DNA of 6,678 nt from an uncultured Lysobacteraceae bacterium (lineage in GTDB: Bacteria > Pseudomonadota > Gammaproteobacteria > Xanthomonadales > Rhodanobacteraceae), in NCBI GenBank assembly GCA_946480705.1, contig CAMLLF010000231.1, positions 1 through 6,678 on the forward strand, read 5' to 3'. The translations under genes were made by a program, and so were the position numbers. Within the stretch, counting starts at the first letter, position 1; every line of letters starts with the position of its first letter. The notes under the pieces are model-generated. The model worked only from the letters and a program-made list of their open reading frames with translations, ran no database searches and was not told where the DNA came from. Shown one piece after another: positions 1-5,622 of this stretch.

Positions 1-137
1 GCGTGATCGTCGAAGGCATGCAGCCCGGGCTCGCCTACGAAATCCGTCTCGTCGACGACAGCGGCGGCGAAGCCGAGCGGCTCGACGAGAACCTGTGCCC
101 GGTTCCGGTCTGCCCGGCCGACTACCGGAATCCCTGA
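1..137 (+). CDS. C-terminal end of an unrecognised protein (5' end outside window)
   Basis: The reading frame beginning with the codon at position 3 is open from the window edge and ends at TGA 135-137, giving 44 residues. The visible tail has an alternating pattern (YEIRLVDDSGGEAERLDENL) and a proline/cysteine-rich end (CPVPVCP). This could be the last strands of a small beta-sandwich or a secreted domain, with the two cysteines a possible disulfide. Third codon positions are almost all G or C, as in the other genes here, which supports real coding. The next gene on this strand begins 95 bases later, so co-transcription with it is possible. The family cannot be recognised from this fragment, and I assign no function. 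Confidence 0.6.
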   Translation, partial: VIVEGMQPGLAYEIRLVDDSGGEAERLDENLCPVPVCPADYRNP

Positions 138-174
138 CGGCGCGCGGCGCCGCGGATGTTCGACAAGGAACGGT

Positions 175-197
175 CGCCGCCGCGTCGCGCGGCGGCG
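175..197 (+). other. Intergenic GC hairpin, possible weak terminator or RNA structure
   Basis: A perfect 10-bp inverted repeat (CGCCGCCGCG and CGCGGCGGCG) flanks a 3-nt TCG loop, 38 bases after the upstream stop codon. No T-run follows, so a canonical intrinsic terminator is not supported. It may attenuate read-through or mark the end of the upstream transcript. It may also be a chance structure in very GC-rich DNA. The rest of 138-232 shows no convincing promoter. Confidence 0.35.
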
Positions 198-218
198 CAC
201 CGCGATGGATCGATTTGC

Positions 219-226
219 GGGGAGGA
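219..226 (+). promoter_or_regulatory. Strong Shine-Dalgarno sequence for ATG 233
   Basis: GGGGAGGA lies 6 bases before ATG 233. It is the clearest ribosome binding site in the + strand part of the window. It argues that 233 is the true translation start of the propeller-protein gene, although the frame it opens is interrupted at 341-343. Confidence 0.7.
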
Positions 227-232
227 TCAGCC

Positions 233-343
233 ATGACCACCGTTTCATGCACATTCGGCGCGCCGACGTCCGGCGCGCGCGTTTCATCCACGCACGCGCA
301 CCGGCGTTTCGTCGCGCCGGCCGCGGCCGTCGGGGCGCGGTGA
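233..343 (+). pseudogene. Start and signal-peptide n-region of the secreted propeller gene, out of frame with the rest
   Basis: ATG 233 follows a strong ribosome binding site and opens a 36-codon frame ending at TGA 341-343. It reads as a plausible long signal-peptide n-region: it has a His-Arg-Arg cluster (HAHRRF) and then VAPAAAV, the start of a hydrophobic core, before it breaks off. The same APAAAV peptide reappears in the frame of the long downstream gene at 396-413, followed there by the rest of a hydrophobic core. I infer that this is the true 5' end of that gene, displaced by the 82-bp repeat-bounded segment. It could instead be a small independent ORF or leader peptide: its TGA overlaps an ATG at 343-345, but that ATG opens a third frame that looks non-coding. 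Confidence 0.5.
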
Positions 344-414
344 TGCCGGACCCTGGGGGACGGCGGAGAGGCCCGCGCCGGGCCCGACCTCCGATGCCCC
401 GGCCGCGGCCGTCG
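317..414 (+). repeat. 16-bp direct repeats bounding an 82-bp frame-breaking duplication or insertion
   Basis: The 16-mer CCGGCCGCGGCCGTCG occurs exactly at 317-332 and again at 399-414, an offset of 82 bp, which is not a multiple of three. The core of each copy, 318-329 and 400-411, is a perfect 12-bp palindrome, so the copies can also pair with each other. The 66-bp spacer contains a 6-bp stem with a 3-nt loop at 370-384. Removing one copy plus the spacer fuses the ATG-233 frame to the long frame ending at 4460, with no mismatch in the reading. It may be a genomic insertion or duplication, a slippage hot spot, or an assembly error. Confidence 0.75.
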
Positions 415-3400
415 TCGGACTGGCCGCGCTGTTCGCGGCGACGGTCGCGACGGCGCAGAGCAGCTGGCGCATCGACAACATCAGTCCGGCCAGTTCCGAT
501 CGCGACGGCAGCGATCCGAACAGCGCAAGCGGCGGACGCGTCAACAAGATCGCAACGCATCCGACGAGCAACCAGATCTATTTCGCGGCCAGCGAATGGG
601 GCGGCCTGTTCCGCACCGGGGATGCGGGCCGCAACTGGGCCTACGTGCCCGGACATCGCCCCCAGGCGCTCTGGGACGTGAAGTTCAATCCGTCGAATGC
701 GCTCGTGCTCGTGGCGACCTCGCGCTACGACGGCAAGACCACGCCGGATTCCGGCATCAGTGTCAGCCGCGACGGCGGTGTGACGTGGTCGGTTCCGGCG
801 ACGGCGCGTCCGGCCGTCGGCGACTGCCGCTTCGCGGTCGATCGCACGGAGCCCGAAGGCTTCGGCATCGCGTTCGATCCGGCGAATGCGAATCGCATCT
901 ACGTCGGCACGGGCTGCGGCATCGCGATCAGCACCGACAACGGCCTGACCTGGGACTTCGTGGATCCGACGCCGGCGACGCCCGGCGGCTCGCGCGTCTG
1001 GGACGTCGAGGTGCATCACGGCGTCGTCGACGTCTGCGGCGCCGATGGCCACCAGCGTTCGAGTGACAACGGCGCGACGTTCGTCGCGGGCGCGGTCGAG
1101 GTCGGCGGCACGTGCTCGCTCGCCGCGTCGCCCGACGAGGCCAATGTGATATTCCGCGTCGTCGGCACGCAGATCTTCGAGAGCCGCGACGGCGGCGCGA
1201 GCTGGCCGACGACGTTCACGAACCCGGGCCCGCAGGGGCGCATTCCGTTCGTCAAGGTGAACGACCGGCCGGGCGCCGCGTTCGATCTGTGGTTCGGCGA
1301 CACGCAGCTGTTCCGCGCCGCGTGCACGACGCCGGCGAACACGGGTTCGACCGCGCAGCGCTGTCCCGCAAGCGGCGGCTGGAGCAACGCGCAGAACGGC
1401 AGCCATTGGGATGTCGGCGACATCGTGTTCAATCCGGCCGGCGGCGTCGGTGCCTGCCCGACGCTGTTCTCCAACGACGGCGGCATCTATTTCAACCAGC
1501 GCACGGGCGCGGACTGCCACGATCCGCGCTGGGAACAGCCGACGACGTCGGTCAGCGCGCTGTGGCTCTGGGACATGGACGGAAACGAGCGCGCGAACCT
1601 CGGCGAGGAAGGCGTGTATCTGGGTCAGCAGGACTCCGGCGCGTTCGGCACGCGCGACGGCGGCAAGAGCACGCTCGACTGGAACAGCCCGAGCTGCTGC
1701 GACGTGTTCGACGTCGAAGCCGAAGCCGCGCGCGTGGTGTATTCGATCTGCTGCTTCAACGGCGGGCGCGCGACGCGCCTGTTCCTCGACGACGACAGCA
1801 TGGACGGCGGCAGCGAAATTCCGACGTATCCGCCGGGCAATCTGCGCAGTTTCCAGGACCAGGGATCGCTGACGCACTACGCCGCGAACAGCTACGCGGT
1901 GGTCACGAGCGGCGGCGTGTTCTTCACGACCAACATCGGCGCCGGCACGGTCACCTGGCAGTCGCTCGGCACCGGCGCGCCCGCCGATGCCTGCGGCATC
2001 GTGCCTTCGCGTGCCGGCGCCACGGCGGTGTTCTATCTGCGCGGCGGCAATTGCTCGGTCGGCGGCACCGGCTCGCTGTGGCGGCACGACGGCGCCACGA
2101 CGACCGGCGCGTGGACCCAGGTGCGGCGCAACGGCGTCAGCCAGTTCGGCGTATTGGCGATCGACCGCAACGACGCCAATCACATCGTGGCGAGCGATCT
2201 CGCCGCGGCTGCGCCGCAGATGGTGCGCAGCACCGACGGCGGCGCGAGCTGGGCGGCGCTCGCGGGCATCGACGCGCTGCTGACCGGCAACGGCGCGTTC
2301 GTCGCGGAAGTGCAGCAGGGCCCGGGCGGCGGCGGCTATCCGCAGGCATCGCTTGCCGCGATCAGTCCGCTCGATCGCAATGTCTTCGTCGTCGGCGGCC
2401 AGGATTCCGGGCTGTACTACTCGGCCGACGCGGGCGCCAACTGGACGCTGCTGACCGATCCGGTCAGCAACGCGAGTCTGCGTCCGCACATTTCGCGGCC
2501 GCTGTTCGCGCATTTCGAGACGCTCGGCAGCCAGCGCAGCAATTTATACATTGGCGCACGCGGCCGCGGCGCGTGGCGCATCGCGATCGATCAGGAGAAT
2601 CGCTGGGCCGGCGCGATCTGGCGCGGCACCGGCGCGGCGTGCAGCGGCGAGAGCTGCCGGGGCTGGCAACGGCTCGACAACAACATCCGCACGACCGATA
2701 TCGCCGCGGCGTCGGACCGGCTGTATCAGCTGCACTACGACGGCGCGATCTGGCGCTCGACCGGCGCGGCCTGCACCGGCGAGAACTGTCCCGGCTGGCA
2801 GCGGCTCGACAACAACGCCCGCAGCATCGCGATCGTCGCCGGCGGCAGCAATCTGTTCCAGCTGCACAACGACGGCACGATCTGGCGCTCGACCGGCGGC
2901 GCCTGCAGCGGCGAGAGCTGCCCGGGCTGGCAGCGGCTCGACAACAACCCGGCAACCGTCGCGATAGCCGCCGGCGGCGCCAAGCTGTTCCAGCTGCACC
3001 GCGACGGGCGGATCTGGGAATGGACCGGCCAGCCCTGCGCCGGCGACAGCTGCCCGCACTGGCGCCAGCTCGACAACAACCCGCGCACGACCGCGATCTG
3101 GACGACGAATGGGCAATTGTTCCAATTGCACGCGGACGGACGCATCTGGCGCTCGACCGGCGCGGCCTGCGCCGGACAGAGCTGTCCCGGCTGGACGCTG
3201 CTCGACAACAACCCGGCGACGGCCGATCTCAGCGTCAACGGCGGCACGCTGTTCCAGCGCCATCGCAACGGCATGATCTGGCGTTCGACCGGTGCCGCCT
3301 GCGCGGGCGAGAGCTGCCCCGGCTGGCAGCGTCTCGACAACAACCCGCGCACCGGCGCGATCGCCGGCGGCGTCTATCAGGATCACCACGACGGACGCAT

Positions 3401-4460
3401 CTGGCGCGCGACCGGCACGCCGTGCAGCGGCGAGAGCTGCCCCGGCTGGACGCTGCTCGACAACAACCCGCGCAGCAAATTCAGCCTCGCGGCCGACGGC
3501 GACGACGCGCGCGTCTATCAGCTGCATGCGCCGAAGCTGTATCAGCTGCACAGCAACGGCGCGATCTGGCAATCGATCGGCGGCGCCTGCAGCGGCGAGT
3601 CCTGTCCGTCGTGGCAGCGGCTCGACAACAATCCGCAGACGCGCGCGATCGCCGCGAGCGGCGGCAAGGTGTATCAATTGCATGCCGGCGGGCGCATCTG
3701 GCGCTCCACCGGCCGGCCCTGCGCCGACGAGAGCTGCCCGGGCTGGGAACTGCTCGACAACAATCCGCGCACGGTCAAGATCGTGTCGTCGGCCGGGCAG
3801 TTGTTCCAGCTGCACAACAACGGACAGATCTGGCGCTTCACGGGACGCACCTGCAGCGGCGAGAGTTGTCCGGGCTGGGTGAGACTCGACAACAACGCGG
3901 CGACGCGCGACATCGTCACCGGCGGCGGCCAGCTCTATCAATTGCACAATGGCGGTCGCATCTGGCGCTGGACCGGCGTCAACTGCAATGGCGAATCGTG
4001 CCCGGGCTGGACGATGCTCGACAACAATCCGCGCACGGCTCGCATCGCCGCGGGCGGCGGACTGCTGCATCAGCTGCACAGCGACGGCAAGATCTGGACG
4101 CACACCGGCGTCGCCTGCACGAACGAGTCCTGCCCGGGCTGGCGCATGATGGACAACAACCCGCGCACGACCGACCTCGTTGCGGGCGGCCGCGAGCTGT
4201 ACCAGCGGCACAGCGACGGCCGCATCTGGGAATCGACCGGCGTCGCGTGCACGGGGACCTCGTGCCCGGGCTGGAGAATGCTCGACAACAATCCGCGCAC
4301 GCGCGCGCTGGCCGGCGCCGGCGGCCTGCTCTATCAGCTGCACGACAACGGCGCGATCTGGCGCAGCGACGGCCGCAGCTGCAGCGGCGAATCGTGTCCG
4401 GGCTGGGCGCGGCTCGACAACAATTCCCGGACGGTTGCAATCGTGTCCGCCGAAGACTGA
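399..4460 (+). CDS. Secreted multi-propeller protein: signal peptide, Asp-box propeller region, 14 tectonin-like blades
   Basis: The frame is open from 237 to TGA 4458-4460 but has no ATG or GTG before GTG 645, which would lose the signal peptide. I therefore mark the coding part from the repeat at 399 and take ATG 233 as the original start. Restored, the protein is 1381 residues and is numbered so here. The hydrophobic core AVVGLAALFAATVATA ends in an ATA/Q cleavage site after residue 47, implying Sec export. The N-terminal region, about 48-760, carries Asp-box motifs (S/T-x-D-x-G-x-x-W/F) near residues 100, 151, 206, 249, 290, 639 and 703. This is typical of BNR/sortilin/GH74-like propellers, though I see no catalytic signature and infer no enzyme activity. 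Residues 766-1381 form 14 repeats with paired cysteines. An extracellular binding or adhesion role is an inference. It is convergent with the flavoprotein gene downstream. Confidence 0.85.
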   Translation, partial: PAAAVVGLAALFAATVATAQSSWRIDNISPASSDRDGSDPNSASGGRVNKIATHPTSNQIYFAASEWGGLFRTGDAGRNWAYVPGHRPQALWDVKFNPSNALVLVATSRYDGKTTPDSGISVSRDGGVTWSVPATARPAVGDCRFAVDRTEPEGFGIAFDPANANRIYVGTGCGIAISTDNGLTWDFVDPTPATPGGSRVWDVEVHHGVVDVCGADGHQRSSDNGATFVAGAVEVGGTCSLAASPDEANVIFRVVGTQIFESRDGGASWPTTFTNPGPQGRIPFVKVNDRPGAAFDLWFGDTQLFRAACTTPANTGSTAQRCPASGGWSNAQNGSHWDVGDIVFNPAGGVGACPTLFSNDGGIYFNQRTGADCHDPRWEQPTTSVSALWLWDMDGNERANLGEEGVYLGQQDSGAFGTRDGGKSTLDWNSPSCCDVFDVEAEAARVVYSICCFNGGRATRLFLDDDSMDGGSEIPTYPPGNLRSFQDQGSLTHYAANSYAVVTSGGVFFTTNIGAGTVTWQSLGTGAPADACGIVPSRAGATAVFYLRGGNCSVGGTGSLWRHDGATTTGAWTQVRRNGVSQFGVLAIDRNDANHIVASDLAAAAPQMVRSTDGGASWAALAGIDALLTGNGAFVAEVQQGPGGGGYPQASLAAISPLDRNVFVVGGQDSGLYYSADAGANWTLLTDPVSNASLRPHISRPLFAHFETLGSQRSNLYIGARGRGAWRIAIDQENRWAGAIWRGTGAACSGESCRGWQRLDNNIRTTDIAAASDRLYQLHYDGAIWRSTGAACTGENCPGWQRLDNNARSIAIVAGGSNLFQLHNDGTIWRSTGGACSGESCPGWQRLDNNPATVAIAAGGAKLFQLHRDGRIWEWTGQPCAGDSCPHWRQLDNNPRTTAIWTTNGQLFQLHADGRIWRSTGAACAGQSCPGWTLLDNNPATADLSVNGGTLFQRHRNGMIWRSTGAACAGESCPGWQRLDNNPRTGAIAGGVYQDHHDGRIWRATGTPCSGESCPGWTLLDNNPRSKFSLAADGDDARVYQLHAPKLYQLHSNGAIWQSIGGACSGESCPSWQRLDNNPQTRAIAASGGKVYQLHAGGRIWRSTGRPCADESCPGWELLDNNPRTVKIVSSAGQLFQLHNNGQIWRFTGRTCSGESCPGWVRLDNNAATRDIVTGGGQLYQLHNGGRIWRWTGVNCNGESCPGWTMLDNNPRTARIAAGGGLLHQLHSDGKIWTHTGVACTNESCPGWRMMDNNPRTTDLVAGGRELYQRHSDGRIWESTGVACTGTSCPGWRMLDNNPRTRALAGAGGLLYQLHDNGAIWRSDGRSCSGESCPGWARLDNNSRTVAIVSAED
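2610..4457 (+). repeat. Fourteen in-frame 132-bp tandem repeats encoding tectonin-like propeller blades
   Basis: Units start at 2610, 2742, 2874, 3006, 3138, 3270, 3393, 3558, 3690, 3822, 3954, 4086, 4218 and 4350. Eleven are exactly 132 bp (44 residues). Unit 6 is 123 bp, unit 7 is 165 bp, and unit 14 stops after 36 residues. The consensus is G-[RA]-IWRSTG, C-x4-C-PGW, x-x-LDNNPRT, then AIAAGG and LYQLHND. Every unit keeps the IW, both cysteines, the second Trp and the DNN. The order of four short beta-like segments (AIAAGG, LYQLH, IWRSTG, W-x-x-LD) resembles a tectonin blade, with an added C-x4-C loop that probably forms a disulfide outside the cytoplasm. Neighbouring units are also similar as DNA, suggesting expansion by unequal recombination. 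Assignment to the tectonin family is by pattern only. Confidence 0.9.
3516..3550 (+). repeat. 24-bp offset micro-duplication inside repeat unit 7
   Basis: TATCAGCTGCA occurs at 3516-3526 and again at 3540-3550, so the blade strand YQLH is written twice, 8 residues apart (VYQLHAPKLYQLH). Together with a short acidic insert (DGDDA) this makes unit 7 11 residues longer than the standard unit. It lies at the midpoint of the 14-unit array and may act as the linker between two propellers. Confidence 0.7.
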
Positions 4461-4524: not shown

Positions 4525-5622
4525 TCAGTACGACGCGCGTCGCGACCAGAACGCGCGATGCGCGAAGCGCACCGGCCCCGCATACGTATCGCGCAAGCGG
4601 TTCCGATAGTGCGCATGGACGGCGCGCATCTCGCCGGCAAACGCCGCGTGCGCCGCGATCGCGTCGTCACGCGCGATCGCATTCGCCGCACTCTCGGCCG
4701 ACGCCAGCGCGTGAAAGAGGCCCTGCGACGCGACCGGATCGAACGACAGCCCGGCGTCGCCGATCGCGAGAAACCCGGTCGCGCCGTGCGCGCCGGCTCC
4801 GCCGTCGAGCACGGCGCTGCCGGCCGGCCGCGCGTGCACGGCCGCATCCGACGCGTCGGGCAGCACGTCGGCGAGCACCGCGAGTCGGCGCGCCTTCGCG
4901 AGCAGATTCGACGCGACCCGAAGCGTGCGCAGTTCGGCATCGCCGGCATCGAGATGAAACGCGAGCACGCGTCGCCCGTCGGGAACGCGCACGCTGTACC
5001 ACCAGCCGTTGTCGTCGGCGCCGATGCGCGTGCACCGGTCGTCGTCGTCCGGATCGGCCGGCAGGTACGCGTGCAGGCAGATCAGTTCGTCCTCGACGCG
5101 GCGCGCGATGCCGAGCTGGCGCGCGATCGCGGCGCTGCGGCCGGTCGCGTCGATCAGCAGCGGCGCGCGGTGAACATCGCCGCGCGCACCGCCGGCAACC
5201 GTCCATCGATCACCGTCGCGCGCGATCCGCAGCGTGCCGGCGTCATCGAGGAGCACCGCACCGGCCGCGACGGCCGTATCGCGCAGATCGCGATCGAAGC
5301 GGTTGCGGTCGAGGTGCCAGCCCGGGCCGTTCGGGTCGCGCAGATGATCGAACCAGACCGGCTCGTCGCTGTCCCACTGCGACACGGTCGCGCCGCGCTC
5401 GGCGTGGCCGGCGGCGGCGAAGCGTTGCCAGGCGCCGCAGCGCTGCAGCACTACGCGTGCGGCACCGGGCAGCGATTCGCCGATGCGCGGCGCCGTTGCC
5501 GCGTCGCGCAGCGGCGCACGATCGAGCAGCAGTACGCGGCGCTGCGGACACAGACGGCAGGCCAGCGCCGAGCCCGCAGGCCCGGCGCCGACGACGATCG
5601 CGTCCCACTCGCCGTCGCTCAC
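4525..5622 (-). CDS. LodB-like FAD-dependent oxidoreductase (maturation partner of the LodA-like oxidase)
   Basis: A complete 365-residue protein. Its GTG start (5620-5622) overlaps the stop of the upstream oxidase gene by 4 nt (GTGA), and a weak AGGGG lies at 5634-5638. An N-terminal Rossmann nucleotide-binding motif, VVGAGPAGSALA, is at about residues 10-21. The acidic end of the second strand (LLLDR) is at 31-35. The GESLPG motif typical of the geranylgeranyl-reductase/tryptophan-halogenase-like flavoprotein group is at 48-53. IDATGR at 157-162 and the FAD-binding GDAGLSFDPVASQG at 288-301 follow. Length and neighbour fit LodB/GoxB, which is known to be needed to form the cysteine tryptophylquinone cofactor of LodA-type oxidases in the cytoplasm. 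Without the LodA-like neighbour it would be called only a halogenase-like monooxygenase, and the lysine of true flavin halogenases is not evident. The start is firm because the FAD motif begins 10 residues after it. Confidence 0.85.
   Translation of the reverse strand: MSDGEWDAIVVGAGPAGSALACRLCPQRRVLLLDRAPLRDAATAPRIGESLPGAARVVLQRCGAWQRFAAAGHAERGATVSQWDSDEPVWFDHLRDPNGPGWHLDRNRFDRDLRDTAVAAGAVLLDDAGTLRIARDGDRWTVAGGARGDVHRAPLLIDATGRSAAIARQLGIARRVEDELICLHAYLPADPDDDDRCTRIGADDNGWWYSVRVPDGRRVLAFHLDAGDAELRTLRVASNLLAKARRLAVLADVLPDASDAAVHARPAGSAVLDGGAGAHGATGFLAIGDAGLSFDPVASQGLFHALASAESAANAIARDDAIAAHAAFAGEMRAVHAHYRNRLRDTYAGPVRFAHRAFWSRRASY

Follow-up and report, generated by a model that had tools for sequence, protein, structure and literature searches.

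The 6,678-nucleotide stretch of DNA that we analysed (hereafter the window), from an uncultured Lysobacteraceae bacterium, carries a long gene with 82 bp more at its 5' end than the gene of a close relative. The extra DNA breaks the reading frame, the protein of the relative is identical to that of the window at nearly all downstream residues, and related proteins are encoded across this region in a single frame. We lean, as a matter of judgement, towards the view that the window holds a broken allele, produced by a short insertion in the segment encoding the signal peptide.

The comparison that carries this view is with P0001, the best match to the long frame (its first 400 residues were scored; 1212 proteins matched at E 0.001, the best 120 of which were listed). 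P0001 is a hypothetical protein of 1381 residues (VLF18_05685, MAG TPA Tahibacter sp., described as 'WD40/YVTN/BNR-like repeat-con...'). Its first 33 residues are those of the frame opened by ATG 233, up to base 331, and the 20 residues that run back from its Q48 are those of the long frame from base 396. These two pieces overlap in APAAAV and cover the N-terminus fully, with all 47 residues before the glutamine (Q456 in the window) shared. From that glutamine onward, the two proteins share 1331 of 1334 residues. The N-terminus and this identity together imply that the window holds 82 bp more than a close relative. Judged on its protein sequence, P0001 differs from the window in lacking the 82 bp and in having one frame from start to stop, and an intact, nearly identical gene without the insert thus exists at the protein level. 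The first-pass annotation had predicted that removing 82 bp would join the ATG 233 frame via RRFVAPAAAV to VGLAALFAATVATAQ, and P0001 has exactly that N-terminus. The genome encoding P0001 was not seen with the propeller query in 297 genomes from the family of genome G001, nor in 398 genomes of the order or 11 of the genus of G001; it was not seen with the oxidoreductase query in 395 family genomes or 13 chosen genomes, nor in 8 genomes from the genus of G514 (these draws overlap, and the family and the order were only sampled).

The features of the window are collected in the table below. The elements of the gene start were found as first annotated: the Shine-Dalgarno-like site lies 6 bases upstream of ATG 233, this codon opens a frame that differs from the long one and ends at TGA 341-343, and the long frame ending at 4460 has GTG 645 as its first ATG, GTG or TTG codon. 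The long frame follows TGA 234 and is open from 237 to 4457, with its stop at 4458-4460. Residue 111 of P0001 is the counterpart of GTG 645, and a product initiated at that GTG would be missing both the signal peptide and the start of the mature protein. Judging from these frames, the window copy, as sequenced, cannot make the exported protein by ordinary initiation.

Features of the window, with the evidence for each
Feature	Position	Strand	Evidence
3' end of upstream gene, stop TGA 135-137	3..137	+	Open to 135 in the frame phase of the long gene from the window edge
Shine-Dalgarno-like GGGGAGGA, 6 bases ahead of ATG 233	219..226	+	Sequence; G+A-rich sites at the equivalent place before the ATG in L001-L003
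Gene start as sequenced: ATG 233, with TGA 341-343 ending its frame; first 33 codons (233-331) match the start of P0001	233..343	+	Sequence, comparison with P0001
Long open frame, without ATG, GTG or TTG before 645	237..4460	+	Sequence
Left 16-bp direct repeat copy, with 12-bp perfect palindrome	317..332	+	Sequence
66-bp segment, its coding missing from the protein of the near-identical relative; 82% G+C, no second copy found	333..398	+	Comparison with P0001, copy searches
Right 16-bp direct repeat copy	399..414	+	Sequence
Putative signal-peptide core AVVGLAALFAATVATA in the long frame; from 396 on, P0001 agrees with this frame	408..455	+	Sequence, comparison with P0001, hydropathy
Sortilin-Vps10/BNR-type propeller match, first part of propeller	531..845	+	PF15902 39.8 bits (cut-off 33), PF02012 31.6 (cut-off 27)
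14 tandem tectonin-like repeats (...CxGESCPGWxxLDNN...)	2607..4457, left limit approximate	+	PF19193 Tectonin 33.1 bits (cut-off 30)
Flavin-dependent oxidoreductase related to GoxB/LodB maturases	4525-5622	-	ORFs, profile scores
LodA/GoxA-like oxidase, C-terminal part	5619 to window edge	-	ORFs, profile scores

More distant homologues point the same way. Three Lysobacteraceae loci (L001-L003) are 78% identical to the window over the propeller, and the end of their upstream gene, their Shine-Dalgarno-like site and their ATG line up with it. The distance from start to glutamine is 47 residues in P0001 and 49, 58 and 51 in L001, L002 and L003 when counted from the ATG beside the Shine-Dalgarno-like site, other in-frame start codons being present in these loci. 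They differ from the window in having no insert and in the variable n-region of their signal peptide. Among the 29 top-listed proteins (P0001-P0029, P0001 included), all have a hydrophobic stretch before a conserved NISP in one frame, with a best 14-residue mean hydropathy of 1.49-2.78; P0011 and P0014, the latter beginning with L, appear shortened at the start. The long form, with the segment, occurs in none of the 29 proteins examined, a set biased to intact starts because gene callers trim broken ones, so that protein databases would under-report it. The comparison of the 5' end with homologues, proposed at first annotation, thus shows no insert in L001-L003 and a single frame through the hydrophobic core in every protein examined. 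This single frame argues that the form without the 82 bp is the functional state and probably the ancestral one.

The extra DNA is bounded by a repeat. Two exact 16-bp direct copies lie 82 bp apart at 317-332 and 399-414, as first reported, and extend to 19 bp with one mismatch (314-332 and 396-414). The initial impression that such a clean arrangement is improbable by chance was borne out: none of 2000 dinucleotide shuffles of 200-460 contained an exact repeat of at least 16 bp (the longest reached 15), and the repeat in this region is more than chance. When the whole window was searched for exact direct repeats of at least 16 bp with a spacing of at most 300, leaving aside the tandem-repeat coding region (2609 to ~4300), this pair alone was found. 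With up to two mismatches allowed, 3 matches to the 16-mer occur in the window where 0.16 would be expected, and the third of them is the 16-mer's own palindrome on the other strand. The perfect 12-bp palindrome inside the 16-mer explains why the copies also match as an inverted pair. However, the description of the 82 bp as a repeat unit was a misnomer, because they comprise one 16-bp copy and 66 bp of unrelated, unique sequence (82% G+C), only the 16 bp (19 with one mismatch) being repeated. The segment does not form a hairpin stronger than expected, as MITE- or REP-like elements would: its fold has a z-score of -1.09, and 33 of 200 shuffles fold equally well or better. There was no match to Rfam families at gathering thresholds, and no promoter- or terminator-like site was found in 120-480.

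We searched for a donor or further copies of the 66 bp in the window, L001-L003, G001-G003, the sampled family genomes and the genus of G514. In the window, the best scores (13 on the forward strand, 12 on the reverse strand) were matched or exceeded by 51 and 94 of 200 shuffles, respectively. Against L001-L003 the scores were 11-13, computed without shuffles, and no second copy was found; a scan of G001-G003, run without a positive control, gave no match. With a 98-bp stretch as query, 35 of the 395 genomes from the family of G001 gave short matches, compared with 22 of 395 for a reversed-sequence control; two candidates were scored per genome in the rows shown for both, so a copy could be missed. 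The best real match (41 bp, 88%, E 3.2e-8) is stronger than the best match of the control (E 2.7e-5). It pairs window positions 374-414, the right part of the segment plus the repeat, with locus L038, within long open frames; one of these reads TAAAAAAEVAPGTTYTCPMHPQI, a sequence that we take to be a linker of copper-ATPase-like proteins. We read the short genome matches as Ala/Pro-rich coding DNA, although this leaves the excess over the reversed control unaccounted for. The segment had short matches in 1 of 8 genomes of the genus of G514. Exact matches to the 16-mer numbered 0, 0, 0 and 2 in G001, G002, G003 and G139, and 1, 1, 1 and 2 for the backwards pattern; the 16-mer is not common in these genomes. 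No donor for the 66 bp emerged beyond the short matches, and the candidate copies in the window were no better than shuffles.

Under the broken-allele reading, the 82 bp, made of 66 bp of unrelated sequence and one 16-bp copy, would have been placed between the n-region and the hydrophobic core of the signal peptide. A length of 82 bp is not divisible by three, so ribosomes that initiate at ATG 233 would stop at 341, and the exported protein would consequently not be made; a cytosolic product from GTG 645, lacking 110 residues, would at best be possible. The insert would most likely be the product of a single, recent event, a strand switch during replication or repair at the 16-mer, which is G+C-rich and partly palindromic. 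The three residues that distinguish the window from P0001 after the glutamine are of interest here. Where the window has V, 19 of the 29 proteins have A and none has V. Where it has R, all 11 proteins longer than 1300 residues (P0001 included) have P, the other 18 rows showing 16 gaps, one T and one V. Two of the three differences thus break conserved positions, which fits relaxed constraint on the window copy, but three substitutions cannot by themselves establish relaxed selection, and errors of sequencing or assembly could produce the same pattern. The third difference, near the C-terminus, says little: S in the window stands against P in P0001 and against A in 9 of the 11 long proteins.

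The first-pass annotation offered three causes, and two of them, a disrupted gene and an assembly artefact, fit the data. In the latter case, a chimeric read or a wrong path in the assembly graph would have joined unrelated DNA at the G+C-rich 16-mer, and the gene of the organism would be intact. We regard this as a serious possibility, though short of probable. It would account for a near-identical P0001 without the segment and for a segment that has no relative in L001-L003 and only short matches in other genomes, and polymerases typically jump at G+C-rich palindromic repeats. Moreover, the longest contig for P0121, the oxidoreductase of the window, has 6338 bases, 340 fewer than the window, and may mean a second, shorter assembly of the region. 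Yet the k-mers used in short-read assembly are usually longer than the 16-bp repeat, a chimeric join would have to be supported on either side of the 66-bp stretch, and the frames of the other coding stretches in the window are unbroken.

The third cause, an on/off switch in which the segment keeps the gene silent until a deletion between the 16-bp repeats turns it on, is very unlikely and is the least likely of the three. Two near-identical sequences do differ, at the protein level, by one repeat plus spacer, and DNA between short direct repeats is known to be lost by deletion. However, the repeated 16-19 bp are in direct orientation and the spacer is unique, occurring once in the window, and no tandem or invertible unit that would permit reversal is evident. 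Deletion would lose the 66 bp irreversibly, and no donor was found beyond the short matches in the 395 family genomes (two candidates scored per genome in the rows shown), so that the switch is left unsupported. Each form is represented by a single sequence, the two coming from different records, and none of the 29 proteins has the long form, under-reported as it would be. A one-way variant, in which the out-of-frame spacer silences the gene and a precise deletion between the palindromic direct repeats turns it on, seems to us just as improbable. Such a deletion would yield exactly the P0001 protein. Contingency (phase-variable) loci with short direct repeats are a known kind, and the window resembles them in having an out-of-frame segment between short direct repeats near a gene start; it differs in that its segment is unique rather than a tandem unit, so that loss is irreversible. 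Were this variant true, populations would mix silent cells with cells expressing a large exported protein. Hardly credible, finally, is that the window form is functional as it stands, through an unusual start (CTG 420 or 429) or through ribosomal frameshifting somewhere in 233-341. Both CTG codons fall in the long frame, which is open from 237, but either would shorten the signal core and leave no positive n-region, and P0001 and L001-L003 use an ordinary ATG and one frame.

The product of the intact gene is predicted to be a secreted protein, with an N-terminal signal peptide, a beta-propeller of the Vps10/BNR type and a C-terminal array of 14 tectonin-like repeats spaced by 44 residues, except for one spacing of 41 and one of 55. 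It scores above the Pfam gathering cut-offs for both the Sortilin-Vps10/BNR propeller (PF15902, PF02012) and the Tectonin repeats (PF19193). It departs from proteins with these domains in that a sequence search of solved structures gave no match at E 0.01 and that NCBIfam NF045728 reached 98.6 bits, under its cut-off of 175. Pfam matches to Imm27 and SAVED scored under their cut-offs. Several homologues, 64-69% identical in the scored N-terminal part, have FG-GAP type domains (PF01839/PF13517) in place of the tectonin-like repeats. The domain architectures suggest that the C-terminal part is exchanged as a module, and the domain names hint at a possible function in binding sugars or cell surfaces.

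By sequence similarity, the wider propeller family is common in protein databases, as the number of proteins matched above indicates, and its close relatives are scattered. In a pattern-based scan of a species-genome collection we found 10 loci, which come from Lysobacteraceae, Woeseiaceae, Cupriavidus, a Nitrospirae MAG, Holophagae and Acidobacteria MAGs, and Desulfogranum. The long gene has homologues on the Cupriavidus taiwanensis plasmid NZ_CP016951.1, which has a 74% identical stretch over 52% of window positions 1-1000, and on small Cupriavidus contigs (L006, L007). These plasmid and contig homologues suggest horizontal spread. The genus of G514, which is probably near the window's organism according to the oxidoreductase (71%), has weak matches in 6 of 8 genomes, none above 36% identity.

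The gene fragment upstream has no Pfam match; it can be aligned with the DNA that precedes the homologous gene in L001-L003, and gene order is therefore conserved. Downstream, the genes for the GoxB/LodB-like flavin maturase and the GoxA/LodA-like (CTQ) oxidase adjoin with a 4-base overlap (5619-5622). Their scores with the NCBIfam equivalog profiles are far under the cut-offs (169 of 400, and 175 of 750 for the oxidase, which is cut by the window edge). The two may possibly form a separate subfamily.

The N-terminus predicted from the raw sequence was recovered residue for residue in an independent, near-identical record, which makes this a clean case. Apart from this confirmed prediction, the locus would be an ordinary broken gene copy or an assembly fault. 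The long gene should accordingly be annotated as interrupted, or the contig flagged, instead of being called from GTG 645.
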